64,000 nucleotides of DNA from Psychrobacter lutiphocae DSM 21542 (GTDB lineage: Bacteria; Pseudomonadota; Gammaproteobacteria; Pseudomonadales; Moraxellaceae): NCBI RefSeq assembly GCF_000382145.1, contig NZ_KB907624.1, positions 1,752 through 65,751 of the forward strand, in the 5' to 3' direction. Positions 21,616 to 36,684 of this stretch are shown here, in pieces. The notes below the pieces were generated by a model, which searched no databases, was not told the origin of the DNA, and worked only from the letters and a program-made list of their open reading frames with translations. Within the stretch, counting starts at the first letter, position 1, and each line of letters opens with the position of its first letter. Made by a program: the position numbers and the translations under genes.

Positions 21616-21785
21616 TTTTATCAAGTTTAGCTGGGTGTTAGACTCTTTGGAAATCCTATTCAAAGGATTTCCCTTGCGTGAGCGAGGAATAGCAAGTATG
21701 TGGGGCATACTTGCCCGATGCGCAAGACGTAGAGCTATGCTCGAAGTTAAATTGCAGTGGCTAATTTCAAGTGGTTTTAACGGCT
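21616..21785. other. Palindrome-rich insert between remnant repeat and array
   Basis: Contains GGAAATCC (21649-21656) facing GGATTTCC (21665-21672), and GCAAGTATG (21692-21700) facing CATACTTGC (21706-21714). The first palindrome recurs, inverted, at 33895-33922 beside the tRNA genes. The open frame across it (21602-21811) runs into CRISPR repeat sequence and is not credible. An inserted repeat element splitting the array end is the likely explanation. Confidence 0.5.
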
Positions 21786-23556
21786 CTCATAAGCCACCTG
21801 TGCGGTGGTGAAGTAACTTCTCAAAGCTAGATTCACTTTCTAAGCATTTCTAAGCCACCTGTGCGGTGGTGAAGCTTAAAAAAATACAAAGTCCCTGCTG
21901 ACGTGTTTTCTAAGCCACCTGTGCGGTGGTGAAGATTGTTATATCAAAGTCTAATGCACTGATTGAATTTCTAAGCCACCTGTGCGGTGGTGAAGCTGGA
22001 CAGACTGGGTAATAGCAACAACAGATGTTTCTAAGCCACCTGTGCGGTGGTGAAGTCGTCTTTGTGAAGGTCACTAAATTCAAAGCATTTCTAAGCCACC
22101 TGTGCGGTGGTGAAGAATTCCAAGCTATCAAACCAAAATCAACTCATTTTCTAAGCCACCTGTGCGGTGGTGAAGAGGAATATAATATTCATATCAACTA
22201 AGGGTAATTTCTAAGCCACCTGTGCGGTGGTGAAGGGTTTAGAGCGACTGCTTTTCGTATGCTGGTCTTTCTAAGCCACCTGTGCGGTGGTGAAGGCTTG
22301 CGTTTGATGCGTTCTTGCTCGTCGATATTTCTAAGCCACCTGTGCGGTGGTGAAGATGATAGTGAGAGTGAAGGTGTTTATTCGTTTTTTCTAAGCCACC
22401 TGTGCGGTGGTGAAGTCTGTATTTGCAATCGCCACCAATTCGCTTGATTTCTAAGCCACCTGTGCGGTGGTGAAGCCAAGTTTGTGATATTAACAATTAT
22501 GAATACTTTTCTAAGCCACCTGTGCGGTGGTGAAGGAATAAACGTCGCTTACAGCCCTGAATCAGGTTTTCTAAGCCACCTGTGCGGTGGTGAAGTGGAA
22601 GGCTCGCCCATGTTTTAAATCCACGTTTTTCTAAGCCACCTGTGCGGTGGTGAAGTGGACACTACCATTGCTATCAACAACCTCAAATTTCTAAGCCACC
22701 TGTGCGGTGGTGAAGAAGGTGAATTCGATAAGGTCTATCACACGATTTTTCTAAGCCACCTGTGCGGTGGTGAAGTACAGTAGTTGTGCTAAGCGCATCG
22801 TAAAACTTTTCTAAGCCACCTGTGCGGTGGTGAAGGATGTGAAAGCTATTAAGACTCTAGGGGCATTTTTCTAAGCCACCTGTGCGGTGGTGAAGCTACC
22901 GCTTTCCAAGCGTTCCAGCTTGCGAGTTTTCTAAGCCACCTGTGCGGTGGTGAAGGACTTTGCTCAGTATGAGCTATATCCTCAGGATTTCTAAGCCACC
23001 TGTGCGGTGGTGAAGCAAGAAACCCTATCTAAAATCATCACGGTAGATTTCTAAGCCACCTGTGCGGTGGTGAAGTGGGAGTAATAGATTATGAGAATTA
23101 TAGAACATTTCTAAGCCACCTGTGCGGTGGTGAAGTCAAGCAGTGTTTGCCCCATTTGCTTGCTGTGTTTCTAAGCCACCTGTGCGGTGGTGAAGAAGGT
23201 TCAAGGAGTAGTATTAATAAACAGTTATTTCTAAGCCACCTGTGCGGTGGTGAAGCAGAATCCCTCGAACAGTTGGTAGCTGTTCGGGTTTCTAAGCCAC
23301 CTGTGCGGTGGTGAAGATATAATATAATTATAAGCATAAAGTGATTAATTTCTAAGCCACCTGTGCGGTGGTGAAGATATAATATAATTATAAGCATAAA
23401 GTGATTAATTTCTAAGCCACCTGTGCGGTGGTGAAGAATCAACTTGGTTTTGAGTTGGTATGCCGTGATTTCTAAGCCACCTGTGCGGTGGTGAAGCTAC
23501 ACACAGAGAGAAGATGCCGGAAGACGTATTTCTAAGCCACCTGTGCGGTGGTGAAG
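21786..23556 (-). CRISPR. Type I-F CRISPR array, 30 repeats
   Basis: Thirty 28-bp repeats at 60-61-bp period give 29 spacers of 32-33 bp. Read on the minus strand the repeat starts CTTCACCACCGCACAGG and ends GGCTTAGAAA, the type I-F form with a 5-bp hairpin (CCACC/GGTGG) for Cas6f. The leader-distal repeat (21786-21813) has decayed at its first bases, which fixes the direction of transcription from right to left, away from csy4. The spacers at 23317-23348 and 23377-23408 are identical, so one unit was duplicated. Apparent open frames through the array are repeat artefacts. Confidence 0.99.
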
Positions 23557-23677
23557 AGGAATTATACCTCAAAAAAGTGAGTTATGACAATGCTTAGAGG
23601 GTAAAAACCCTGTTTTTACCCTCTTTCTTTGACTATATCATAACTCTTTGATTCTATTACAAGTTTTTAAATAGGTC
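23557..23677 (-). promoter_or_regulatory. CRISPR leader
   Basis: AT-rich interval between the newest repeat and the cas terminator. On the minus strand it contains a match to the IHF consensus (AATCAAAGAGTTA, 23641-23653; WATCAANNNNTTR) about 85 bp from the first repeat. IHF bending of the leader is established for spacer integration in type I-E and I-F systems. A perfect 13-bp hairpin also lies at 23596-23624. The array promoter should lie here, but its boxes are not certain. Confidence 0.75.
23596..23624 (+). terminator. Perfect 13-bp hairpin inside the CRISPR leader
   Basis: AGAGGGTAAAAAC and GTTTTTACCCTCT flank a 3-nt loop. The T-rich tail (TTCTTTG) lies on the plus-strand side, so as a terminator it would stop antisense transcripts running towards the cas genes rather than the array RNA. 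It could instead be a structural part of the leader. Confidence 0.5.
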
Positions 23678-23749: not shown

Positions 23750-24346
23750 TTACCAATGTGGTACAGTGATATTATCACTCATGCCATTCATACCATAAGT
23801 ATTAAACTCTCCCAGTGTTGGTTTGTCAGCAGGTTGTTGTAATACCTTAAGCATATATGGCGATTTATTGGTTTCGCTCATTAGCCTAATGTAGGGCACT
23901 GGCTTTTCGGGCTTTCGTTTAGCGATTGTTGCCATCGCATCATCTAAACTAATTCCTAATTTTTTAGCCAATGACCTTGCTTGTATTTCAACTGGTTTAA
24001 AGCGGTAGCGATGAACGCTTAAGTAACCCTCTATTTTATCAGGCACATCTTTTATGGGCTTAATATGCACATAGTCAGTCAAACGCTCAAGCCATTTGTT
24101 AAGGTTAAGATTCTCTAAACCCTCCTTATTAGGCGCAAACACACGCAGTTTATTACCCAGTTTAGATGATTTACCGTTTTTACTATCAAAGTAATAGTCA
24201 GGGAAGCTTACGCCAATCGTCTCAATTTTATGTGTGTTTTTAATATCTGCCAGTGCGATATGAAGCTGGTTATACAGCTTACTCCAGATAAAGTAGCCAC
24301 TGATTTCAGGATCAGGGAGAATAGTGAGTTCTTGATAATATTTCAT
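23750..24346 (-). CDS. cas6f: CRISPR RNA endonuclease Cas6f (Csy4)
   Basis: Cuts pre-crRNA at the base of the repeat hairpin and stays bound as the head of the Csy complex. The 198-residue product aligns by eye with Pseudomonas Csy4: YYQELTILPDPE at the start, catalytic His29 in LHIAL, GVSFPDY and the C-terminal YGMNGMSDNITVPHW. The Arg/Lys-rich helix (QARSLAKKLG..IAKRKPEKP) would enter the RNA groove. The start overlaps the csy3 stop by one base and has an AAGGTGG ribosome site. Confidence 0.97.
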   Translation of the reverse strand: MKYYQELTILPDPEISGYFIWSKLYNQLHIALADIKNTHKIETIGVSFPDYYFDSKNGKSSKLGNKLRVFAPNKEGLENLNLNKWLERLTDYVHIKPIKDVPDKIEGYLSVHRYRFKPVEIQARSLAKKLGISLDDAMATIAKRKPEKPVPYIRLMSETNKSPYMLKVLQQPADKPTLGEFNTYGMNGMSDNITVPHW

Positions 24347-25317
24347 TAATCGCCACCTTTACTAAACACACCACCTCTGATTAAGTTAGCGACGATATAA
24401 GCTTTATCCTCATCAGCTAATTCAGCATCATTTACCCATGCAACCATTAAAGTATATAAGTCATTTTTGCTTTTACGATAAGCTTGTCCACGTTGGGTCA
24501 CTGCACCAAAAGGTTCTGCGGCAATAGGAAATTCAGCATCTGCAAACCAATCATCAACCGTACGTAAAGCATTGCCAACTTTGACATTATGCATAGCGGC
24601 TTGGTCATTAATCTTAAATAATACTTTGCGTTTTTCACCCATGTTCATTTCTTGAGATGGAAATACACGCTGTCCGCTACCAAGTTCAACAAACGCATCG
24701 ACGGCAATAAAAACAAACGTATCGCTAGCAAGACCTTCTTTGATAGCGTCTGCTAATTTAGTTATTTTTTCATCAGCATCGTTGAAATTATTTAAACTAT
24801 AATCGTAAGCATTAAATCTTAAAGATTCGCTTTGCCCATCACTATCTTGTCTATCAATCGTAACTTTAATAGTAATGTTCTTAGCACCGACACGGTTACG
24901 CCATAAAAAGCGACCATTTGCTATATTATAAGCATAGCGTTTGGCAAGCTCATCTAGCATATCTGTTTGTTTAAATTCATCAACTTTTTGCTTAATTGCG
25001 GTCTCAAACTCGGGGCTATTACAAGCAAAAGGTAATCCTAGATTACCGATAAGGCGTAGGGTGAAGCTAACCTTTAAAGTATCATGCTCTAAAGGTAGGT
25101 TTGCATCATCGTTACTTGATGCAACAGGGTTGGGGCGAGTCTTTTTATCATCACTAATGCCTTGAGCACTTTGCGTAGAACGGTTTAAACGAGGAATGAT
25201 TTTGATAGGTTGCCAATCGTTAGCATCTTTGTCATCCCAGTTTCCTGAAAACATAAGCGCATCAGAATTTTCAAGCTTGCGCTCAAATGATAGTAAGTTT
25301 GGTAGGTCGATATTCAT
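24346..25317 (-). CDS. cas7f: Csy complex backbone protein Cas7f (Csy3)
   Basis: Forms the six-subunit helical filament along the crRNA guide in type I-F interference. The 323-residue length and the sequence features (NLLSFERKLENSDALMFSG at the start, NGRFLWRNRVGAKNI, FPSQEMNMGEKRKVLF and QRGQAYRKSKNDLYTL) match Csy3. It lies between csy2 (18 bp upstream) and csy4 (one-base overlap). A GGAG ribosome site precedes the ATG. Confidence 0.97.
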   Translation of the reverse strand: MNIDLPNLLSFERKLENSDALMFSGNWDDKDANDWQPIKIIPRLNRSTQSAQGISDDKKTRPNPVASSNDDANLPLEHDTLKVSFTLRLIGNLGLPFACNSPEFETAIKQKVDEFKQTDMLDELAKRYAYNIANGRFLWRNRVGAKNITIKVTIDRQDSDGQSESLRFNAYDYSLNNFNDADEKITKLADAIKEGLASDTFVFIAVDAFVELGSGQRVFPSQEMNMGEKRKVLFKINDQAAMHNVKVGNALRTVDDWFADAEFPIAAEPFGAVTQRGQAYRKSKNDLYTLMVAWVNDAELADEDKAYIVANLIRGGVFSKGGD

Positions 25318-25335: not shown

Positions 25336-26484
25336 TTAAATCAAGTAAGGGTCGATATTGTTATCTACTTTAGGTTGATAGTTTTGCTTACATAAATACC
25401 AGTTAGGTTGGTAGTCATAGCACCATAATGATTGTTGTAATTGCTTTAAATCTTCAATGCGGTGTACACTTTGCCATTCACCAATGCTATGTACGGCTTC
25501 TACAAAGCAAACGTCTGTACTAGCATCGCGAGTATTGTCAACGTCATCATTTTTATAAACAGGACTAATGGCTTTATAACCTGTCATGATAGGGACTAAA
25601 TATCCCGAAGCAGGTTTGGGTACATACTCCCAATCTGCCACCGTTTTATTATCAGGATTGATATAATCTTGCCATTGTTTTAAGAGTTTTTTTAGTGATT
25701 TATTATCTTCAAGACCGTCGAAATATTGACTAATAACGGTTGGTATTTCAGTATTGTGATAGGGTGTTGATAAATATTTTTGCCAGGTTTGCCAGAGAGA
25801 GACATCTTCTAAGTACTCTAGGTGTTTATCAAGTAACGTATGCTCAGGTCGAGCAGATTGCTTTAGCGAGGCAAAGTCAATCCAAGCAGTTAAGGTATCA
25901 AGCCCTTGCTCTTTGGCATGAGAGGCAAGTAAGTCACCACGCTCATATAATACAAAGCCGGGGAGCAATGAGCGTACAAGTTGTCTCAATTGTCGTTTTT
26001 GAGTCGCATCGTCACTGGCATTAATCGATATTAAATCAATGTTATCAATATCTAAGATACTACCGCCAGCAATACGCAATAAACGGCAATGCGTATTTAA
26101 CCAGCTAATAACATCGTCACTATCAATAACAAAACCTTCGTATGCAATTAACAATGATAAATTCACATTCATCTTGCCCTCTTCAATGACAGAGGCGGTA
26201 CTGCGTTTTTTCTCATCCGTCAATCCATGTAAATAAGGTGAGTTACGTGATTGAGTGAATTTGATTGCGCCATTGTCGTTTCTAAAGGTGTGCTGATGGT
26301 GTTCATGCACTATCATTGCTGTGCCTAATAACTCTAAGGAGTCATCTTTGAAATGGTCATCCATTTTTCGTTGTAGCGCATGAGTAACCCCCATAATAGC
26401 AGTAGGACTAATCGACCCTGTAGTCAGACCAGCTACCGCATTAGCATTTTGTACTTTAATGCGATTAAGACATATCAGCTTCAT
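25336..26484 (-). CDS. cas5f: Csy complex subunit Cas5f (Csy2)
   Basis: Holds the 5' handle of the crRNA together with Csy1 at the tail of the type I-F complex. The 382-residue protein has the Csy2 landmarks: the N-terminal strand LICLNRIKVQNANAVAG, TGSISPTAIMGVTHALQRKM, and the later GWLVPI-like stretch ASGYLVPIMTGYKAISP. It overlaps csy1 by 4 bp (ATGA), which implies coupled translation. Confidence 0.95.
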   Translation of the reverse strand: MKLICLNRIKVQNANAVAGLTTGSISPTAIMGVTHALQRKMDDHFKDDSLELLGTAMIVHEHHQHTFRNDNGAIKFTQSRNSPYLHGLTDEKKRSTASVIEEGKMNVNLSLLIAYEGFVIDSDDVISWLNTHCRLLRIAGGSILDIDNIDLISINASDDATQKRQLRQLVRSLLPGFVLYERGDLLASHAKEQGLDTLTAWIDFASLKQSARPEHTLLDKHLEYLEDVSLWQTWQKYLSTPYHNTEIPTVISQYFDGLEDNKSLKKLLKQWQDYINPDNKTVADWEYVPKPASGYLVPIMTGYKAISPVYKNDDVDNTRDASTDVCFVEAVHSIGEWQSVHRIEDLKQLQQSLWCYDYQPNWYLCKQNYQPKVDNNIDPYLI

Positions 26485-28004
26485 ACCGTAGCCTCCTGTT
26501 GCATACTAGAGTCATTATTTTGAACATTCTTCCAATCACCACTATCTTCATTTATAACCTCCATGTGTTCTCGTAGTATATTTGCAAAAATATCACGCCA
26601 AACACGGCTATGCTCACTACTGGCAATAAATTCGTTATTTTTTCCTTTAAGAGCTTTGTTAAGCCAGACCACGAAATCTTTAACCAATTGCCCTTGCCAG
26701 TCGCTTTGTTGTTTTAGCTTCACAAACTCGTCATCCTTTCTATCAAAGTCTAAGAATATTTGCTGGGCTATAGGCAAATTACATTCTGAGTCATTCGTCC
26801 AGCCAGCAGGTAATATGGCAAGGGTCTGCGAGTAATCAATGACATTATGAGCGATAGCTTTCACCCAATTACTGATACCTTTTAATCTGTTGGGGTCTTT
26901 AAAGCTAATATCTGCATTCTCAAAAGTCATTAACATTTTTCGAAGCGCTACAATATTGTCCCAAGCGTAACGGTTTAGTAGGCGAGCATTGAACATACTT
27001 TTTAATTTTATTGGTGGGTTTAACTGACTTTGCCAAACTGGAGGTGCACTGTTAAACAAACGAATGTTACCGCCCCGACTGCCATTATTCACCGATACGT
27101 TTTGAGGTTGGCTCATTACAGTTGATAAAGTGACGATGTTTGGTAGGCTTTGTAATATGTCGGCGCTGTATTTACCTTTTTCTTTTTGTTTGTAAACTTT
27201 ATCTCGCTCTTTTCTAATATCTTTAAAGAAATAGTTGTCATAAATAGCTTGTATCAATGAGGATGGTTTTAATACCACCAGTAAATGATAGTCGTCATCG
27301 ACAGGGTAATAGACTTGTTTGGCAAGTGAGTCAGCTTTAGGTTTAGGATTTAATTTATTTTTAAAACCAGTTATTAGCTCGTTTAACTCATCCTCTTTTA
27401 GAATATTTTGAAAAGGTACGCTATTGCTAGCTTTCAACAGTTTACCTAAGGGTTTGTCGTCTATAGTCAGTAATAGAAATTTAGCTATTTTGGATAAACT
27501 GGCATTAGGATAAGCACCATCATAGGTAATATTATTTAATGAACTAGTAGTAAGATATTCAGCTTTAACATCATCAACTTCATCCATAATTGATGAGCCA
27601 CCACTGCTAGAATGGGTAAGCTTGGCGACATGAGTCGCTGGAGTGACATAGTCGATTTGTAACAAAGCATAGCGTAACCATATATGATGATAATCAGTCA
27701 TCGACCTTAATTTGTTGAGTGTGTCATCAATGGACGTGATCCATTCATTATCAATAAAATCCTGATACATTTTTTCGATTTTGGGTAAACTTCTTTCATT
27801 AAGCGACATCTTGTTCAGTCTATTAAGCTCTTTTTGCAACGCTTTATTCTGCTTAGTGTCATCAGCCTTGGCGGTAACTAAATGATTGAACAAAGCGGTC
27901 GCAATAATTGCACCTTTCATTTTATCGATTTTGTTTTGTTCACCTAGGTCATCGATGTATTGAGTTATGACGTCTCGCCAAGATTTTTTCGCTTCGGATG
28001 ACAT
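26481..28004 (-). CDS. cas8f: Csy complex large subunit Cas8f (Csy1)
   Basis: Recognises the CC PAM and recruits Cas2-3 in type I-F systems. This 507-residue protein is first in the csy operon. It is weakly conserved, as expected, but has Csy1-type segments (VTLSTVMSQPQNVSVNNGSR, GGNIRLFNSAPPVW, LLNRYAWDNIVALRKML). An AAGGA ribosome site precedes the ATG. A predicted promoter (28047-28075) and a probable crRNA-guided repression site (28079-28112) lie immediately upstream, so its expression may be controlled by the complex it helps to build. Confidence 0.95.
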   Translation of the reverse strand: MSSEAKKSWRDVITQYIDDLGEQNKIDKMKGAIIATALFNHLVTAKADDTKQNKALQKELNRLNKMSLNERSLPKIEKMYQDFIDNEWITSIDDTLNKLRSMTDYHHIWLRYALLQIDYVTPATHVAKLTHSSSGGSSIMDEVDDVKAEYLTTSSLNNITYDGAYPNASLSKIAKFLLLTIDDKPLGKLLKASNSVPFQNILKEDELNELITGFKNKLNPKPKADSLAKQVYYPVDDDYHLLVVLKPSSLIQAIYDNYFFKDIRKERDKVYKQKEKGKYSADILQSLPNIVTLSTVMSQPQNVSVNNGSRGGNIRLFNSAPPVWQSQLNPPIKLKSMFNARLLNRYAWDNIVALRKMLMTFENADISFKDPNRLKGISNWVKAIAHNVIDYSQTLAILPAGWTNDSECNLPIAQQIFLDFDRKDDEFVKLKQQSDWQGQLVKDFVVWLNKALKGKNNEFIASSEHSRVWRDIFANILREHMEVINEDSGDWKNVQNNDSSMQQEATV

Positions 28005-28046: not shown

Positions 28047-28075
28047 ATAATACATTAAGATTTTTAAAAAAACAA
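28047..28075 (-). promoter_or_regulatory. csy operon promoter
   Basis: On the minus strand, -35 TTGTTT (28070-28075), a 17-bp spacer and -10 TATTAT (28047-28052). Transcription would start near 28040 and leave a leader of about 36 nt before csy1. The -35 box begins 3 bp from the CC PAM at 28079-28080. Confidence 0.7.
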
Positions 28076-28078
28076 TAA

Positions 28079-28112
28079 CCGTAGTAGCTTATTAATAGAA
28101 AATATATATTTT
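28079..28112 (+). promoter_or_regulatory. PAM and partial protospacer for the mini-CRISPR guide
   Basis: CC (28079-28080) is followed by GTAGTAGCTTA (28081-28091), identical to the first 11 nt of the mini-array guide at 28169. Position 12 differs, 13-15 match, 16 differs, 17 matches and 18-20 differ. Positions 12 and 18 are sixth-position bases, which type I complexes flip out. Csy binding here would cover DNA next to the csy1 -35 box. Confidence 0.75.
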
Positions 28113-28138
28113 ACAGTATATGATTTTTAATCTATTAT
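28110..28138 (+). promoter_or_regulatory. Promoter of the mini-CRISPR RNA
   Basis: -35 TTTACA (28110-28115), 17-bp spacer, -10 TATTAT (28133-28138). The predicted transcription start, near 28145, falls at the foot of the first repeat hairpin, so the RNA would begin almost directly with the Cas6f recognition stem. It is divergent from the csy promoter. Confidence 0.7.
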
Positions 28139-28140
28139 GC

Positions 28141-28216
28141 ACCTATCACCGCTAAGGTGACTTAGAGAGTAGTAGCTTAGTAAAATTCTTTTACCACCGC
28201 ACAGGTGGCTTAATAT
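28141..28216 (+). ncRNA. CreR-like Cas-regulating RNA (degenerate two-repeat mini-CRISPR)
   Basis: Two degenerate I-F repeats in the sense orientation on the plus strand flank a 20-nt guide (28169-28188). The first (28141-28168) matches 19 of 28 bases of the array repeat. Its hairpin TCACC..GGTGA keeps pairing because the outer C-G became T-A, and it keeps the handle CTTAGAGA. The second (28189-28216) matches 23 of 28, including the whole 20-base core with the hairpin. Cas6f cleavage would give a roughly 48-nt RNA with handle, 20-nt guide and 3' hairpin. The guide matches the csy1 promoter next to a CC PAM. Known analogues are CreR RNAs and CreA antitoxins; the function here is inferred. Confidence 0.8.
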
Positions 28217-28228
28217 AAAGATATCGAG

Positions 28229-31200
28229 TCATTGTTCTTGATATAAGCCTAACTGATACTGATAAATAAAGGGTACGTTATCATTTTGATAGGGTGATGG
28301 TTTTATTTCACCAAACTTCTGACTGATACTCTCTAAATCGTAGTTTTTATCTTCATTAGAGAAATCTTCAATAAGCTTTTGATAAACAGATAAAGGGTTT
28401 AAATCAAACCAGAATTTATTACCAGCACCTTTTAATAATTCGTCATTATCTTTAATATGAAAAGTAACACCTACGTTTTTAGCTGGATGAAAACGTTTGG
28501 TAGGGTCATGCTCATCAGGGTTAGCCCATTTAAAGGTAGGCTTAATAAACGTATCTGTTAACCATAAGTGATATGAATCACTTTTAACTGACTTTCTAAA
28601 ACGCTGTTGGCGTTGGATTTCACCACTCCAATGCGGATGATGTTTCCACCAGTTAGAAGCATGTTGATGAGTTTGTGTATCATGAAGCAGTTGTCTGTGT
28701 AATGCTTTGTGTTCAAGTTCATCAAGATACTGGGTTTTAGGATTGTTAGGTTGGAAATTAACAGGATTAATAATTTTCGAAGTTGAATCAATGCTTAAAT
28801 AATTGGCTTCTTGTAAAACATTGCTTAAATCGTGGTCAGTTAATTTTAATTTTTTTTGCTCGAATCCAGGTTTAACAAAACATTTTTCTTCGTTTTTTAA
28901 GGCTCTAACATTTTTATTGAGCAAGCTAATATTAGCAGATGTAGGATGGTGGTCTCGATGACGCAATACTCGACCAGCCAACTGCACCATTGAGCGAATA
29001 GAGCTAGGCTCAACTATCGCCCAATCATAATCATGGTCACGTCCAACTTCGGCAACAGGCGATGCTAAAACGACAAATACATGATGTGTATGCGAGCTTG
29101 AATTGATGTTTGCGCCAACTCCTTTATCAATAGTCCAAATTTGCTTAGGGTCTTTACGCTTCAATATGGTATCAAGGTTTTGTTCAATGTGAGAGCGAAT
29201 AGCTAGGGGAAAACGACTGTGATAAATACAATAATGAATGATGGTATCTTTGGGTGCATCCTTTGCCAATAGATATTTAGCAACTTGTATCAAGGGATCA
29301 ATATTTGCCATACGAACCAACCCGATTGAGACATGCTTGTTATCTTTGCTTAGATGATGAGCTTGGTGAAGCTGGCTAATTTCATCATAGATTGTATTTG
29401 CCATATTTTCATGAGCAGTTAAAGTAGCATCTTCATTTATAATTGCGATTTTACCAATACGCTTTGGCGGTAGCTTTTTTAGAGCGTTTATACGAGTAGT
29501 AACAAATTTTTCATGGGCAGTCTTAAATCCTTTGAAATTATCAAATTCAATCAAAGCTTCAATTGGCTTTTGGGTTTCGTCAAACCAAGCGCATTGAATG
29601 TTATTGTCCCAATCCGCAATATTTGCTTTCGCATATTCTTTCCAACCACTTTTATAAGCTTCAAAACAGGCAAAAACTAGAGCAGGGGGCATGGTAGCGG
29701 TTGATAAAAGCACACGGCTACCTAGCATTGCCGACCAGTGGATAAGTCTACATAACGCTGGTAAATCGCTTAATCCAAAGTCATCAGGTTCATCGAGGAT
29801 TAAGTCACTAGTTAGAAGTCGAAGCATGGGGGCAATTTGTTGCCCGCCTCTAATGCCTTCTGTAGCAGGAATTAAATGGTCAATGGTACAAACTAAAACT
29901 GGAGGTAATAATAGCTTATTGATACGAGGTTTATTTTTAGTCCATTTGGTTAAAGGATGATTGGTTACTTTACCTTGATAGTCGAGATAAAGCTCTGCAT
30001 TAATAAAATCATCAGCAGATTCACTGCCTAGCGTTTCAGTGTCTTCTTTCTTTACAGAATCTTGATGCTTATTTTGATTTTTCTCAAATAAAGCTTTTAC
30101 TGTAATACCGCCTACGGCAATAGATAAATCTTCTTCAGTTAGTTTCATGACTTCTTGAAACTCTTTACCAGTCTGTAAGGTTAGAGTTCTAAGTCCAAGC
30201 GCAACATTAAAGCGAACCCGTCCTGTTTGTTGTCCGATAGCATAGAGGATTTTAGCGTTACAAAGCGTTTTACCACTACCAGTAGACGCCATATTGATGC
30301 CAAAAAACCCATTTTTATCTGTGTTACTACCTATTGATTTAGCGAGCTTTTGTGCATCGTCTTGCCAGCTAAACTTTTCAACCAGTAGCTTTGCTTTATC
30401 TTTAGTTAGATTTTGCTCCTTAAGGTTATCTTTAAGTAAGTTTGCCAAAAAGTCATTATCGAGTAAGCCGTTTAACTCACGCTTTAGGCGAGGTAGGTTT
30501 TTACTAATTTCTTCAGCTTCTCGACCCACGCCGACGAGGTGCTGGTCAAGCTGTTGTTTATAAACTTTGGTGTCATTTTCATCCCAATCGGTATTGGCGT
30601 AAACGCTATATCTATCATCTTTATATTTACCTAAATGCCGAGCGCTCTTACTGGTTTCAATATCTAATGAGGAAACATAATGGTCTGCCATCATCAAAGC
30701 CAAACGTGATAGGTGAGTGCTAAATAATCTATCATGTAATAGGCTAAGTTTAGGTGTGGCATCTTCCCGATGAGTTAGACTATTTAGGTAGGGTTGTAAT
30801 TCACCTTTTGCTTCACTTGCTATTAAGCAGGCATGAGAGCGCCATTGATGACTATGATAAGGTAGAGTATTTTCATTAAATGACCAATTGTCTTTGATAC
30901 GTGATGCTTGCTCATCATCAACACAATTAGGTGAGTTCCAAAAATCTTTAAAATACTTAAACCACTTAGGTATATCCTCAAATAGTGGTAGAGGGTCTTT
31001 AAGATTGTTTTTATTTTTATTTTCAAGGTTGTTTTTGTATTGAGGATAAATAGGCAGTTTATGATGCGACACAATCAGCCATGCGACCAGTTGAGCAAAA
31101 GGAGGTAATCTATTAAATGGATTACGATTTTCTATTGAAATTTTATCAATACCATCACGGTATATATTAGTCGTATTCTCAAAGTGACCATTCGCTAATT

Positions 31201-31717
31201 TATTTAGCCATGTTTCATCGTCGTTATCTCTAACAAAAGCCTCAAATAATCTTAACGACACCCACTCATGGCGATAAGGTTCAAAAGTCTCTGTTTTAAG
31301 ATTAGGATTTATTTTATCTTGAAATAATTTATTAGCTTTGCCAAAATCATGGAATAAACCTGCTATAGCACTGGCATATTGAATTAGGGGTAAACTTTTC
31401 CACTCAAAACTGTCTTGATAAGCCGTTATATCATCTTCGGTCCAGTTAACCGGCACAATCCCCACTTCATTAAATTTACGTTTATTACCCACAATCCAAA
31501 CCAGCTCAGTACGTTGGCGGGTACGCACTCGGTGGCAACTAACCGCCGTTGAGCGGGTTGCTGATTGTCTTAATAGCTTTTTAACTGTAACCAAACCCTC
31601 TTCGGTAATCGCCGTTTGCCACACATTATCGCCAATACGATTGGCAAAGGCATCCAAAATACGCCGAGTACGCTTTAAGGCTTTTTTCTCACATTGAGAG
31701 ACGAGGGTGACGAGCAT
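28229..31717 (-). CDS. cas3: Cas2-Cas3 fusion nuclease-helicase (type I-F)
   Basis: A single 1162-residue protein joins a Cas2 domain (about residues 1-95, beginning MLVTLVSQCEKKALKRTRRILD), used with Cas1 in adaptation, to the Cas3 effector. The HD nuclease is marked by GLFHDFGKANK (HD at 123-124). The SF2 helicase has Walker A MASTGSGKT (about 476-484) and a DExx-type DEPD (about 637-640), then ASPVAEVGRDHDYDW and QLAGRVLRH as later helicase motifs. No truncation is seen. An AAGGA ribosome site precedes the ATG. The 288-bp gap from cas1 holds a family A repeat, so cas3 may have its own promoter or read through it. Its 3' end faces the CreR-like RNA, whose longer transcripts would be antisense to it. 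Confidence 0.97.
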   Translation of the reverse strand: MLVTLVSQCEKKALKRTRRILDAFANRIGDNVWQTAITEEGLVTVKKLLRQSATRSTAVSCHRVRTRQRTELVWIVGNKRKFNEVGIVPVNWTEDDITAYQDSFEWKSLPLIQYASAIAGLFHDFGKANKLFQDKINPNLKTETFEPYRHEWVSLRLFEAFVRDNDDETWLNKLANGHFENTTNIYRDGIDKISIENRNPFNRLPPFAQLVAWLIVSHHKLPIYPQYKNNLENKNKNNLKDPLPLFEDIPKWFKYFKDFWNSPNCVDDEQASRIKDNWSFNENTLPYHSHQWRSHACLIASEAKGELQPYLNSLTHREDATPKLSLLHDRLFSTHLSRLALMMADHYVSSLDIETSKSARHLGKYKDDRYSVYANTDWDENDTKVYKQQLDQHLVGVGREAEEISKNLPRLKRELNGLLDNDFLANLLKDNLKEQNLTKDKAKLLVEKFSWQDDAQKLAKSIGSNTDKNGFFGINMASTGSGKTLCNAKILYAIGQQTGRVRFNVALGLRTLTLQTGKEFQEVMKLTEEDLSIAVGGITVKALFEKNQNKHQDSVKKEDTETLGSESADDFINAELYLDYQGKVTNHPLTKWTKNKPRINKLLLPPVLVCTIDHLIPATEGIRGGQQIAPMLRLLTSDLILDEPDDFGLSDLPALCRLIHWSAMLGSRVLLSTATMPPALVFACFEAYKSGWKEYAKANIADWDNNIQCAWFDETQKPIEALIEFDNFKGFKTAHEKFVTTRINALKKLPPKRIGKIAIINEDATLTAHENMANTIYDEISQLHQAHHLSKDNKHVSIGLVRMANIDPLIQVAKYLLAKDAPKDTIIHYCIYHSRFPLAIRSHIEQNLDTILKRKDPKQIWTIDKGVGANINSSSHTHHVFVVLASPVAEVGRDHDYDWAIVEPSSIRSMVQLAGRVLRHRDHHPTSANISLLNKNVRALKNEEKCFVKPGFEQKKLKLTDHDLSNVLQEANYLSIDSTSKIINPVNFQPNNPKTQYLDELEHKALHRQLLHDTQTHQHASNWWKHHPHWSGEIQRQQRFRKSVKSDSYHLWLTDTFIKPTFKWANPDEHDPTKRFHPAKNVGVTFHIKDNDELLKGAGNKFWFDLNPLSVYQKLIEDFSNEDKNYDLESISQKFGEIKPSPYQNDNVPFIYQYQLGLYQEQ

Positions 31718-32005: not shown

Positions 32006-32995
32006 TTAATTCCAATCGGTTTTTAATGCCAATCCCTTAACCACATCGAACATCTCATCAAGCGCCTTATATTGAGTAAAGTAGTTTAAGCACTCTTGGC
32101 GAAACTCTTGCTCGCTGCGGTTTTCGCTAGCGCAAATAAAGGACAGTGGTAACACCAGCGCATCCTTCACAATGTCAGCGATATCAAATACCAATGCGCC
32201 ACGTCTGGTTTTACCATGCATCACCGCAAAGCCATGGGGGATGCCGAGCACCCAAGCAGTGGTTGCGCCAAGCCCGTAAGCTAGATAATTGCCATGATTT
32301 AGGAATGCATTGGCTTTATCAAGTCCGTCGTGCTCTCTGCTAAAGCCATTATAATTGGTATTTTCTGCGGCCACTTTGTACAAAGATTTGGTTAAGCGGG
32401 CCTCTAGTTGCAGTAGGTGCATGACGCTATTTTGCAACGAAATTTGGCTTTGGTGCTTATCTAGTAAGCTTGTGATATCTGGTTGCTGGCTGTCAAAGCC
32501 ATGTTGTTTGAATGCTTTGTTGCGCTGCCATACGGAGCGTAAAAATTCGATGCGTGCCAGTTGCATGAGTTGAGCCGCTTGCAGACGTTTGTCATCATCA
32601 AACCACCAGCTCATCCAGCCTTGAATGTATTCAGTAGGTCGGTATTCGCTTTGTGGGGTCAGCCATTCGACAAAGATTTCTTTCTCGCTACCCATAAACA
32701 GCGGCGTACCACCACCGCCACAAAAACCGACGAGTACGCCAGCTTGTGATAGCAAGCGCATGGCGGCTTGGGTGATGGAGGTGCCTGTGCCGAGAAGTAG
32801 GGAGGTGGTGTTGGCGATGGGGATGTTAAAGTATTGATTGGCTTTGTCTTCTTCGGTGAGGTACAGCACCCTACCATCTTTCTGAAGGATGCGACAGTGA
32901 GATAAATAGTAGATATTGGCACGTTTGGAGTGCAAGATGGTCTTTAGATCTGAGGAGACAAAGCTGGTGTCAAGGTAGGGGTTTTTGGCTGGCAT
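32006..32995 (-). CDS. cas1: CRISPR integrase Cas1 (type I-F)
   Basis: The spacer integrase, working with the Cas2 domain of Cas2-3. The 329-residue sequence has the type I-F pattern: a short N-terminal beta domain (ILHSKRANIYYLSHCRI, VLYLTEEDKANQYFNIPI), TTSLLLGTGTSITQAAMRLL, VGFCGGGG, and a helical C-terminal domain with catalytic Glu in LLQLEARLTKSLYK, His in IPHGFAVMHGKTRRGALVFD and a following acidic residue. An AAGGA site precedes the ATG. It is the promoter-proximal gene of the locus. Confidence 0.97.
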   Translation of the reverse strand: MPAKNPYLDTSFVSSDLKTILHSKRANIYYLSHCRILQKDGRVLYLTEEDKANQYFNIPIANTTSLLLGTGTSITQAAMRLLSQAGVLVGFCGGGGTPLFMGSEKEIFVEWLTPQSEYRPTEYIQGWMSWWFDDDKRLQAAQLMQLARIEFLRSVWQRNKAFKQHGFDSQQPDITSLLDKHQSQISLQNSVMHLLQLEARLTKSLYKVAAENTNYNGFSREHDGLDKANAFLNHGNYLAYGLGATTAWVLGIPHGFAVMHGKTRRGALVFDIADIVKDALVLPLSFICASENRSEQEFRQECLNYFTQYKALDEMFDVVKGLALKTDWN

Positions 32996-33649: not shown

Positions 33650-33686
33650 TGAGCAAGGATACAGATGAAGCACTGCTTCATCCCTT

Positions 33687-33731
33687 GCGCAAGAGAAAAT
33701 CCCTTAGAGGGGATTTTCTGATAACTTAAAT
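33687..33731. repeat. 45-bp hairpin repeat, copy 1
   Basis: Identical to 33835-33879. It contains AGAAAATCCC / GGGGATTTTCT around a 5-base loop. It lies directly upstream of the tRNA-Val gene, in or near its promoter region. Confidence 0.9.
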
Positions 33732-34353
33732 ACCTTTAATGACTATAAAGAGTCACTACCTTTTTAGCTTCGCAAGAGCCAAGCTGTGCTTGGCTAAAAG
33801 CCAAATACCTTGCAACATCTATTAAAGATAGATTGCGCAAGAGAAAATCCCTTAGAGGGGATTTTCTGATAACTTAAATTCCTGCTAGATCTTACAAGGG
33901 AAATCCTTTAAATAGGATTTCCAAAAAATCTAACTTACAACAAACAAAAGAACCATATATCCTCTGAATGTAGGTGCGTATTATATAGGCTAAATTTTTG
34001 TTGTCAAATTTTTTTTTGAAATTACTTTGAAAAAAGTGGCTTTTAAATTTTTATAAGTAATCCGACAAAATTAAACAGATATAGTTTTAAACTCCCCAAA
34101 GTTCATAAAAAGGCATTACCTTCTGTTTAAACTGCTCTTTATACGCAATAAATAAAAACACCAACTGTAAAAGCACCTTCTAATATTTTAGTAACTCCTA
34201 GCAAACAATTATTAGATTCTCTAAGCCAACTCATCCCTATTATAAACAGTTATCAAGCTCAAGCCATGCCCGAGTTATGATAAACTAAGCATTATCAGGT
34301 TTTATATCAACCAAACCATCACTTTATAATCATAAACCTAACAAGAGACGTCC
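33732..34353. other. Repeat-rich, then AT-rich intergenic before ftsY
   Basis: No gene. It holds an inverted pair (AGCCAAGC / GCTTGGCT, about 33778-33795), the second 45-bp hairpin copy (33835-33879) and a palindrome at 33895-33922 that matches 21649-21676 in inverted orientation. Bases 33990-34350 are very AT-rich and should contain promoters for the tRNAs (minus) and ftsY (plus). Confidence 0.4.
33835..33879. repeat. 45-bp hairpin repeat, copy 2
   Basis: Exact second copy of 33687-33731, 148 bp away in the same orientation; a recent duplication of a hairpin-bearing segment. Confidence 0.9.
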
Positions 34354-35779: not shown

Positions 35780-35910
35780 TATAAAAACCCCACTCTCAAC
35801 GCTTTGCGTAGGCTGGTGCTTTAGCCCAGCATATCAGCTTAATAAATACATTTCGCTGAGCTAAAAGCGCCAGCCTACACCGGATTGTAATAAGTTGAGA
35901 GTGGGATATA
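35780..35910. repeat. Long imperfect palindrome, family D copy 2
   Basis: Bounded by inverted CCCCACTCTCAAC / GTTGAGAGTGGG, with inner arms GTAGGCTGGTGCTTTAGC / GCGCCAGCCTAC. Related to 733-865. An open frame with a TTG start at 35895 begins inside it, one reason to prefer a later start for ogt. Confidence 0.75.
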
Positions 35911-35969
35911 TAAAACCTTTATCAATACAGCCTATATCCATACAATCACCAAACATTCACGATAAACCC

Positions 35970-36578
35970 ATGCTAATCCTTACCAGTACCACTTTTGCCA
36001 ACCACTCCTTACTGCTTGCAAGCCACTCTCATGAGCCAAGCGGCAAGCCCGTACTGGTGTTTATCAACTGGCTAAACGATGACCACTGGCAACGCTCAAA
36101 ATCATTAAATAAGATAAAAATCCACTATCAGCTAGCCGATAGCCACATTTCATTCATTAATAAAAATAGCCTAAGCAAAGATAACCCCGCCCAATTACTC
36201 TTATTAACCGCCATTCATCAACTTAGCCAATACGAAACTGGTAAGCGCTGTCAATTTGATTTACCGTTAGATTTATCAATGGGCACAGCTTTTCAACAAA
36301 GCGTGTGGCAAGCATTGAGACAGATTGCTTATGGTGACACCATCAGCTACGCCACGCTTGCACAACATATAGGCAAACCGACAGCGTATAGAGCGGTTGC
36401 CAATGCCAATGGCAAAAACCCATTTAGCATTGTTATTCCTTGTCATCGGGTCATTGCCAGTGATGGTGGGCTAGGGGGATATACCGGTGGATTGGACAAA
36501 AAGCGCTGGTTATTGCAGTTAGAATGGCAGTCAAATCAGGACAATAGCAAAGAGGGCAATCAAAGAGAAAGAGGGTAA
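35970..36578 (+). CDS. ogt: Methylated-DNA-protein-cysteine S-methyltransferase
   Basis: Repairs O6-alkylguanine by transferring the alkyl group to its own Cys in a single-use reaction. The C-terminal domain carries FQQSVWQALRQIAYGDTISY, the helix-turn-helix Arg segment (PTAYRAVANANGKNP) and the active site IPCHRVI with Cys at about residue 158. The ATG at 35970 is chosen over a TTG at 35895, which lies in repeat DNA. The stop codon falls inside a 19-bp tandem repeat, so the last residues are repeat-derived. Confidence 0.9.
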   Translation: MLILTSTTFANHSLLLASHSHEPSGKPVLVFINWLNDDHWQRSKSLNKIKIHYQLADSHISFINKNSLSKDNPAQLLLLTAIHQLSQYETGKRCQFDLPLDLSMGTAFQQSVWQALRQIAYGDTISYATLAQHIGKPTAYRAVANANGKNPFSIVIPCHRVIASDGGLGGYTGGLDKKRWLLQLEWQSNQDNSKEGNQRERG

Positions 36579-36605
36579 TCAAAGAGAAAGAGGGCAATCA
36601 AAGAG
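36549..36605 (+). repeat. Three tandem 19-bp units across the ogt stop
   Basis: Units of AAAGAGGGCAATCAAAGAG. The second has TAA where the others have CAA, and this creates the ogt stop codon. Copy-number change would alter the C-terminus. Confidence 0.85.
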
Positions 36606-36684
36606 AGAGCAACAAGTAAAAGAGTAACAAGCAAAATATAGTCAACAATCTACAAGGGCGGCATAGAACGACAGCACAGCTATC

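Follow-up and report, generated by a model that had tools for sequence, protein, structure and literature searches.

The window, the 64,000-nucleotide stretch of the Psychrobacter lutiphocae genome analyzed here, contains a complete type I-F CRISPR-Cas locus, which encodes Cas1, Cas2-3 and Csy1 to Csy4 and carries an I-F repeat. The genes are located on the minus strand in the order cas1f, cas2-3, csy1, csy2, csy3, csy4, followed by the CRISPR array:

32006..32995, minus strand: cas1f (TIGR03637)
28229..31717, minus strand: cas2-3 (Cas3f; TIGR02562)
26481..28004, minus strand: csy1 (Cas8f; TIGR02564, PF09611), 507 aa, first gene of csy1-csy4 and the predicted regulated gene
25336..26484, minus strand: csy2 (TIGR02565)
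24346..25317, minus strand: csy3 (TIGR02566)
23750..24346, minus strand: csy4/cas6f (TIGR02563, PF09618), predicted processor of the mini-array RNA
21769..23565, minus strand: main CRISPR array with the 28-nt repeat CTTCACCACCGCACAGGTGGCTTAGAAA and a 60-nt period (28 + 32)

Copies of this repeat with array-like 60-nt spacing were also found on two further contigs of the genome (C51 and C24). Past cas1, the window contains two near-identical 51-nt copies (98%; 33685-33735 and 33833-33883) located 148 nt apart, in which an inverted repeat can be recognized by eye. Further on, 19-nt tandem repeats (36549-36624) span the end of the reading frame 35895-36578.

Between cas2-3 and csy1, a gap of 224 nt houses a two-repeat mini-array on the plus strand (28141-28216), preceded by a predicted promoter:

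28110..28138, plus strand: predicted mini-array promoter TTTACA-17-TATTAT, 10/12, found by the promoter scan
28141..28168, plus strand: degenerate repeat psiR1, 18/27 identical to the array repeat
28146-28160, plus strand: hairpin of psiR1 with the 5-bp stem TCACC/GGTGA, present in the minimum free energy (MFE) fold
28161-28168, plus strand: 8-nt 5' handle CTTAGAGA within psiR1
28169..28188, plus strand: 20-nt guide GTAGTAGCTTAGTAAAATTC, its length set by alignment of psiR1 and psiR2 with the array repeat (28 nt)
28189..28216, plus strand: degenerate repeat psiR2, 23/27 identical to the array repeat, with a hairpin at 28194-28208 (fold)

The 5-bp stem is retained in both degenerate repeats, the outer pair in psiR1 being T-A instead of C-G. 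The MFE fold of the mini-array RNA contains both hairpins, and the RNA as a whole folds mildly better than its shuffles (z -1.63; 15 of 200 shuffles were as good). An immune array would have 32-nt spacers and intact repeats, whereas here a 20-nt guide is flanked by degenerate ones. Such a mini-CRISPR with degenerate repeats within a cas locus is a feature shared with the CreR regulators discussed below.

The guide resembles a site upstream of csy1, next to a predicted csy1 promoter:

28079..28080, plus strand: CC PAM 5' of the protospacer, reading GG on the csy1 strand (sequence)
28081..28100, plus strand: partial protospacer of the mini-array guide, matching at positions 1-11, 13-15 and 17
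28070..28075, minus strand: predicted csy1 -35 box TTGTTT, 3 bp from the PAM (sequence; similar geometry in relatives)
28047..28052, minus strand: predicted csy1 -10 box TATTAT, 17-nt spacing (sequence; relatives)

An earlier note on this DNA had drawn attention to an 11-nt repeat, and GTAGTAGCTTA is indeed found at 28081-28091 and at 28169-28179, the start of the guide; the CC that it took for the PAM stands at 28079-28080, 5' of the protospacer, which is the correct side for type I-F. Guide and target are identical at 15 of 20 positions. Mismatches occur at positions 12, 16, 18, 19 and 20, of which the note had given 12 and 18 and omitted 16, 19 and 20. In type I complexes, every sixth base is flipped out and not read. 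CC followed by the 11-nt seed occurs only once in the 3,174,532-base assembly, and a backwards control pattern does not occur at all. If positions 6, 12 and 16 may take any base, only the csy1 site in the genome matches without mismatch; looser genomic sites (three mismatches) are about as frequent as in the control. Shuffles of the guide matched at most 11 of the 15 read positions after a CC, compared to 14 for the actual guide (0 of 200 as good). The region is A+T-rich, a composition that could produce a chance similarity, but this explanation is refuted statistically by the shuffles, by the single site in 3.17 Mb and by the periodic mismatches in relatives described below, and we consider it extremely improbable. 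The guide-target pairing in the window is not coincidence.

The target sits between divergent predicted promoters, those of csy1 and the mini-array (28081-28138), 9 nt from the mini-array -35 box. As the earlier note had stated, the PAM lies 3 bp from a predicted csy1 -35 box; the pair TTGTTT-17-TATTAT is present there, but it scores only 8/12 and was absent from the promoter scan; this predicted promoter gains weight only because relatives show like geometry. The guide is partly complementary to this predicted cas promoter, beside the PAM of the subtype, which is again as in CreR.

Relatives were surveyed across the family, presumably Moraxellaceae. At E <= 0.001, Csy1 was detected in 19 of the genus's 105 genomes and in 70 of the family's 348. 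The weakest of the 72 matches in these 70 genomes (G249, covering residues 9-114 only) was omitted, leaving 71 loci in 69 genomes with start codons assigned by script, and pairs of array-like repeats with a hairpin were sought upstream of csy1 in each. Three of the 27 repeat pairs found were removed before the pairing statistics: the first pair of L104 and that of L116 are ordinary spacers (32 nt, between array-like repeats), and one pair of L087 has a spurious first repeat. In all 24 remaining mini-arrays, the best match over read positions 1-17 is preceded by CC (the first-found best, with ties left as they were). None of 200 shuffles of the own guide was as good in 22 loci, including the window; 2/200 and 3/200 were as good in L056 and L087, respectively. 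By plain identity, with no PAM required, CC precedes the best nearby site in 23 of the 24; in the exception, L104, a different site located after TC is favored. One or two foreign guides scored equal to the own guide at 10 of the 24 loci, and we take these for related guides.

A second scan demanded only the repeat handle and the read seed in the 1 kb preceding csy1. At 10/10 read seed positions it returned 17 matches, 16 of them after CC. At 9/10, CC preceded 32 of 62 matches, distributed across 30 loci, while any other dinucleotide occurred at most four times, so a few of the CC matches may be due to chance. Six loci were added in this way (L078, L092 and L116 at 10/10; L071, L076 and L077 at 9) and are not counted in the statistics of the 24 pairs. 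A guide-target pair is carried by 30 of the 71 csy1 loci, with many different guides, and by 11 of the 19 csy1-bearing genomes of the window's genus. The guide is only 12-16 nt long in L057, L087, L101 and L112, according to repeat alignment. The guide sequence varies between clades while the pairing is kept. Selection on the guide-target pair is supported by this comparative evidence.

The promoter geometry was assessed at 19 loci, comprising 11 from the window's genus, 7 from genus g14 (probably Moraxella, by our guess) and 1 from g2 (which we take to be Acinetobacter), by scoring, out of 12, those -35/-10 pairs that begin 0-5 nt beyond the PAM. The mean score was 8.47/12, compared to a mean of 6.77 for single-base shuffles (sd 0.25, maximum 7.53 in 1000), and the spacing between the boxes is 17 in 17 of the 19 loci. 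No convincing -35 box beside the PAM was found in this test for L102, L115 and L125. A variant with 18 loci (L079 included; L092 and L116 excluded) and a slightly different score gave 8.81 versus 7.56. In the g2 loci L071, L076, L077 and L079, which the 19-locus test omits, the PAM lies 12-22 nt from csy1 and the target covers the 5' leader, not the -35 box.

The earlier note had also proposed that mismatches at every sixth position are not read by the complex, and the concentration of mismatches at positions 6, 12 and 18 in relatives agrees with it. Mismatches were found at position 6 in 15/24 pairs, at 12 in 16/24 and at 18 in 11/20, where free drift would give about 75%. No mismatch was found among the 24 pairs at any of positions 1-5 and 7, and positions 8 (6/24) and 16 (6/21) rank next. 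Taken together, positions 6 and 12 are mismatched in 31 of 48 cases, compared to 26 of 327 at the other positions from 1 to 16 (Fisher p 6.5e-18); for the 20 guides that differ from one another over bases 1-12, the figures are 23/40 and 22/271 (p 2.7e-12). These p-values are too small because the rows are related, although the effect size is large. The initial choice of targets ignored positions 6, 12 and 18 and could have favored mismatches there; when targets were re-chosen by plain identity, the site was identical in 23 of the 24 and the counts were 30/48 versus 26/327.

The same survey bears on the possibility that the mini-array is a decayed ordinary array whose immune spacer resembles the promoter by accident. 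Its repeats are array-like, and the viral contig L135 (4748-4768) carries CC followed by guide positions 1-17. Since the backwards control pattern gave 14 viral matches, this single one is within chance. The unique PAM-flanked target in cis, the CC-flanked best cis match in 23 of 24 mini-arrays including the window, and a guide of 20 nt, too short for I-F1 interference as described in PMC7296934, all speak against an immune origin, which appears most improbable. By eye, the frame holding the L135 match resembles phoH. A phage-borne copy of the handle and seed was also sought; the sole viral match (L126), located within a long coding frame lacking CRISPR-like repeats, was taken as chance.

Two relatives were set beside the window: Psychrobacter immobilis 1184, the one match of a csy1 scan of named genomes that picks up close relatives only, with a Csy1 74% identical to that of the window, and genome G330. 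The target TAACCGTAGTAGCTTA, the predicted mini-array -35 box ATATATTTTACAGTA and the handle with the seed start CTTAGAGAGTAGT are identical in P. immobilis 1184, while guide position 6 is altered and a 10-base insertion, about one helical turn, separates the target from the mini-array promoter. G330 has a different, 12-nt guide, ATATTACATTTA, matching its own PAM-flanked target at 12/12. The Csy1 of the window groups with those of P. immobilis and G330 in a single clade (100/100); all three members carry a pair, and the clade is separate from the other mini-array clades. On the Csy1 tree, which leaves out one of the 71 rows (under 330 aa), the mini-array label changes 9 times (7 forced by well-supported branches) compared to 22.8 in shuffles. 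The trait is clustered on the tree, yet it has been repeatedly gained or lost, and deep placements are unsure because of long branches. The gap before csy1 is at least 176 nt in all 24 mini-array loci; among the other loci the gap could be measured in 43, and it is at most 41 nt in 31 of them, some with overlapping genes, and longer in 12. Five of these 12 (L071, L076, L077, L092 and L116) later gave pairs. A separate csy1 promoter and the mini-array seem to arrive together.

For 20 of the 30 pairs, the csy1 start follows the PAM at a distance of 12-86 nt, and no Shine-Dalgarno (SD)-led small ORF lies in between. The remaining 10 include six with an ORF called in between and four with the target in the opposite orientation; in the latter (L073, L078, L080 and L082), the CC-flanked target is on the opposite strand and points away from csy1. 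Between target and csy1, L069, L072 and L074 share the 10-codon SD-led ORF MFSTHL[IV]RRV, consistent with the 33-bp creT ORF of Acinetobacter (PMC10097628). An 8-codon frame of L071 overlaps the csy1 start, and this target is probably directed at csy1. In L119 and L122, both of the window's genus, a gene for a 77-aa DUF2188 protein (Pfam, on the L119 copy) lies between the target (20/20 and 19/20) and csy1; it may represent a cargo gene that heads the regulated stretch.

The published I-F creT raises the question of whether the window contains a CreTA module, in which the mini-array would be the antitoxin creA and its target would control a small toxin RNA, creT, making the cell dependent on Csy. 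The position between cas3 and csy1, the 20-nt guide and the CC PAM match the I-F CreTA described for Acinetobacter (PMC10097628), the 10-codon ORF of L069, L072 and L074 resembles creT, and the window does have a mini-array in this gap with a PAM-flanked partial target. However, only 74 nt separate the PAM from the csy1 ATG, a space largely filled by the predicted promoter and ribosome-binding site, and no SD-led mini-ORF or toxin gene was found there downstream of the target. The corresponding segments of P. immobilis 1184 (76 nt) and G330 (60 nt) likewise lack an SD-led mini-ORF. Because no toxin ORF was found, the window is not classed as CreTA, a reading we regard as very unlikely. As with CreR, the guide appears to control no toxin gene, judging by the absence of an SD-led ORF between the PAM and csy1; a non-coding toxin is possible.

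Very probably, the crRNA-like RNA of the mini-array directs the Csy complex to the promoter of its own operon and represses it, being unable to license cutting by Cas2-3. The earlier note's interpretation as autorepression is supported by the CC in 23 of 24 pairs, the periodic mismatches and the promoter-adjacent targets found under other guides. The promoter at 28110-28138 would produce a short plus-strand transcript, which Csy4 would cleave after both degenerate hairpins. The product, composed of the 8-nt handle, the 20-nt guide and a 20-nt 3' hairpin, would enter the Csy complex, and the complex would locate CC and the 11-nt seed at 28079-28100, abutting the csy1 -35 box. With this box occupied, RNA polymerase would be unable to initiate the csy1-csy2-csy3-csy4 operon. 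A guide 12 nt shorter than an immune spacer, pairing only in part, would form an R-loop too short for Cas2-3, leaving the chromosome uncut. Binding without cutting, as the note had suggested for short pairing, agrees for a 20-nt guide with the guide length of the I-F CreA (PMC10097628) and with published work on I-F1, in which removing 6, 12 or 18 nt from the spacer gives complexes whose R-loops are shorter and leave Cas2/3 untriggered (PMC7296934). Shortening 32 nt by 12 gives the 20 nt found here, which would explain harmless self-targeting. Repression would be stronger the more Csy complex is free, and weaker once ordinary crRNAs or anti-CRISPR (Acr) proteins consume it, relief by the latter being proposed by analogy with CreR.

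Several observations count against autorepression. The csy1 promoter, at 8/12, was missed by the scan, and guide position 16 is mismatched in the window, while each of positions 13-17 is required for repression by Acinetobacter CreA (PMC10097628). The I-F CreA target described in the same paper is located downstream of its promoter, whereas that of the window is upstream of the -35 box. Read-through from cas2-3 could also reach csy1. In addition, the mini-array RNA folds only mildly better than its shuffles, and 10 of the 24 loci have foreign guides that score as high as the own one.

Activators can bind upstream of a -35 box. From this geometry, the bound Csy complex might activate csy1 or block another regulator instead of repressing. 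Against this, the PAM-side edge of the target adjoins the -35 box in most of the 19 loci, and the characterized crRNA-like regulators repress (CreA, PMC10097628; CreR, according to the reviews cited below). Activation is highly improbable, and repression remains our preferred reading.

On a wider scale, it is possible, if somewhat doubtful, that Psychrobacter and a related genus, probably Moraxella, harbor a large, fast-diversifying family of I-F autorepressors abutting promoters, in which guide and target change together and positions 6, 12 and 18 drift, and that bound Csy in the window may hold down the mini-array as well as the csy operon. If the autorepression is real, the locus would set its own Csy level and refill a pool depleted by anti-CRISPR proteins or many crRNAs; given the further repeat copies on C51 and C24, the regulatory RNA may face competition from many crRNAs. 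The roughly 30 natural guide-target pairs would offer an in vivo read-out of the positions read by the type I-F complex, and their 12-16 nt cases would also inform the minimum guide length.

Related regulation is known from other systems. Cas9 is said to repress its own expression via a long-form tracrRNA (Workman et al. 2021, 2024); the likeness is that an effector represses itself, while that system is class 2 and based on tracrRNA. Its repression is described as relieved by Acr. Shmakov et al. (2023) reportedly described standalone mini-arrays partly complementary to cas8 promoters, one of which, of type I-F1, was tested as a regulatory guide; the window similarly has a mini-array partly complementary to the predicted promoter of csy1, which encodes Cas8f. 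Among the matches listed in the open-access literature (titles and abstract starts), none concerned a csy1-directed mini-array in Psychrobacter.

RNA-guided cas autorepression has already been published as CreR, so the prediction of the earlier note is less new than it was rated. According to reviews (PMC13131331, PMC12737573, PMC12948488), CreR (Liu et al. 2023) is a mini-CRISPR RNA mediating autorepression through partial complementarity to a cas promoter, and repression is relieved by crRNA competition and Acr proteins. The window likewise has a mini-CRISPR whose guide is partly complementary to a predicted cas promoter; it differs in being I-F, with a PAM 3 bp from the predicted csy1 -35 box, while CreR is given for I-B, I-E and V-A in one review and for type I and V-A in another. 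The Acinetobacter I-F CreTA (Wang et al. 2023, PMC10097628) is described with a toxic small RNA, a target downstream of the creT promoter, a gap of about 400 bp and a 33-bp ORF, none of which was found in the window. Its CreA has a 20-nt guide with an 8-nt 5' and a 20-nt 3' handle, is processed by Csy4, and depends on the Csy complex, while Cas1 and Cas3 are dispensable. The reported mismatches are at positions 6, 11 and 18, compared to 12, 16 and 18-20 in the window. The two systems share the cas3-csy1 gap, two degenerate repeats, the 20-nt guide, the CC PAM and partial pairing. A toxin guard and a cas autorepressor at one genomic spot would make a case for conversion between the two designs.
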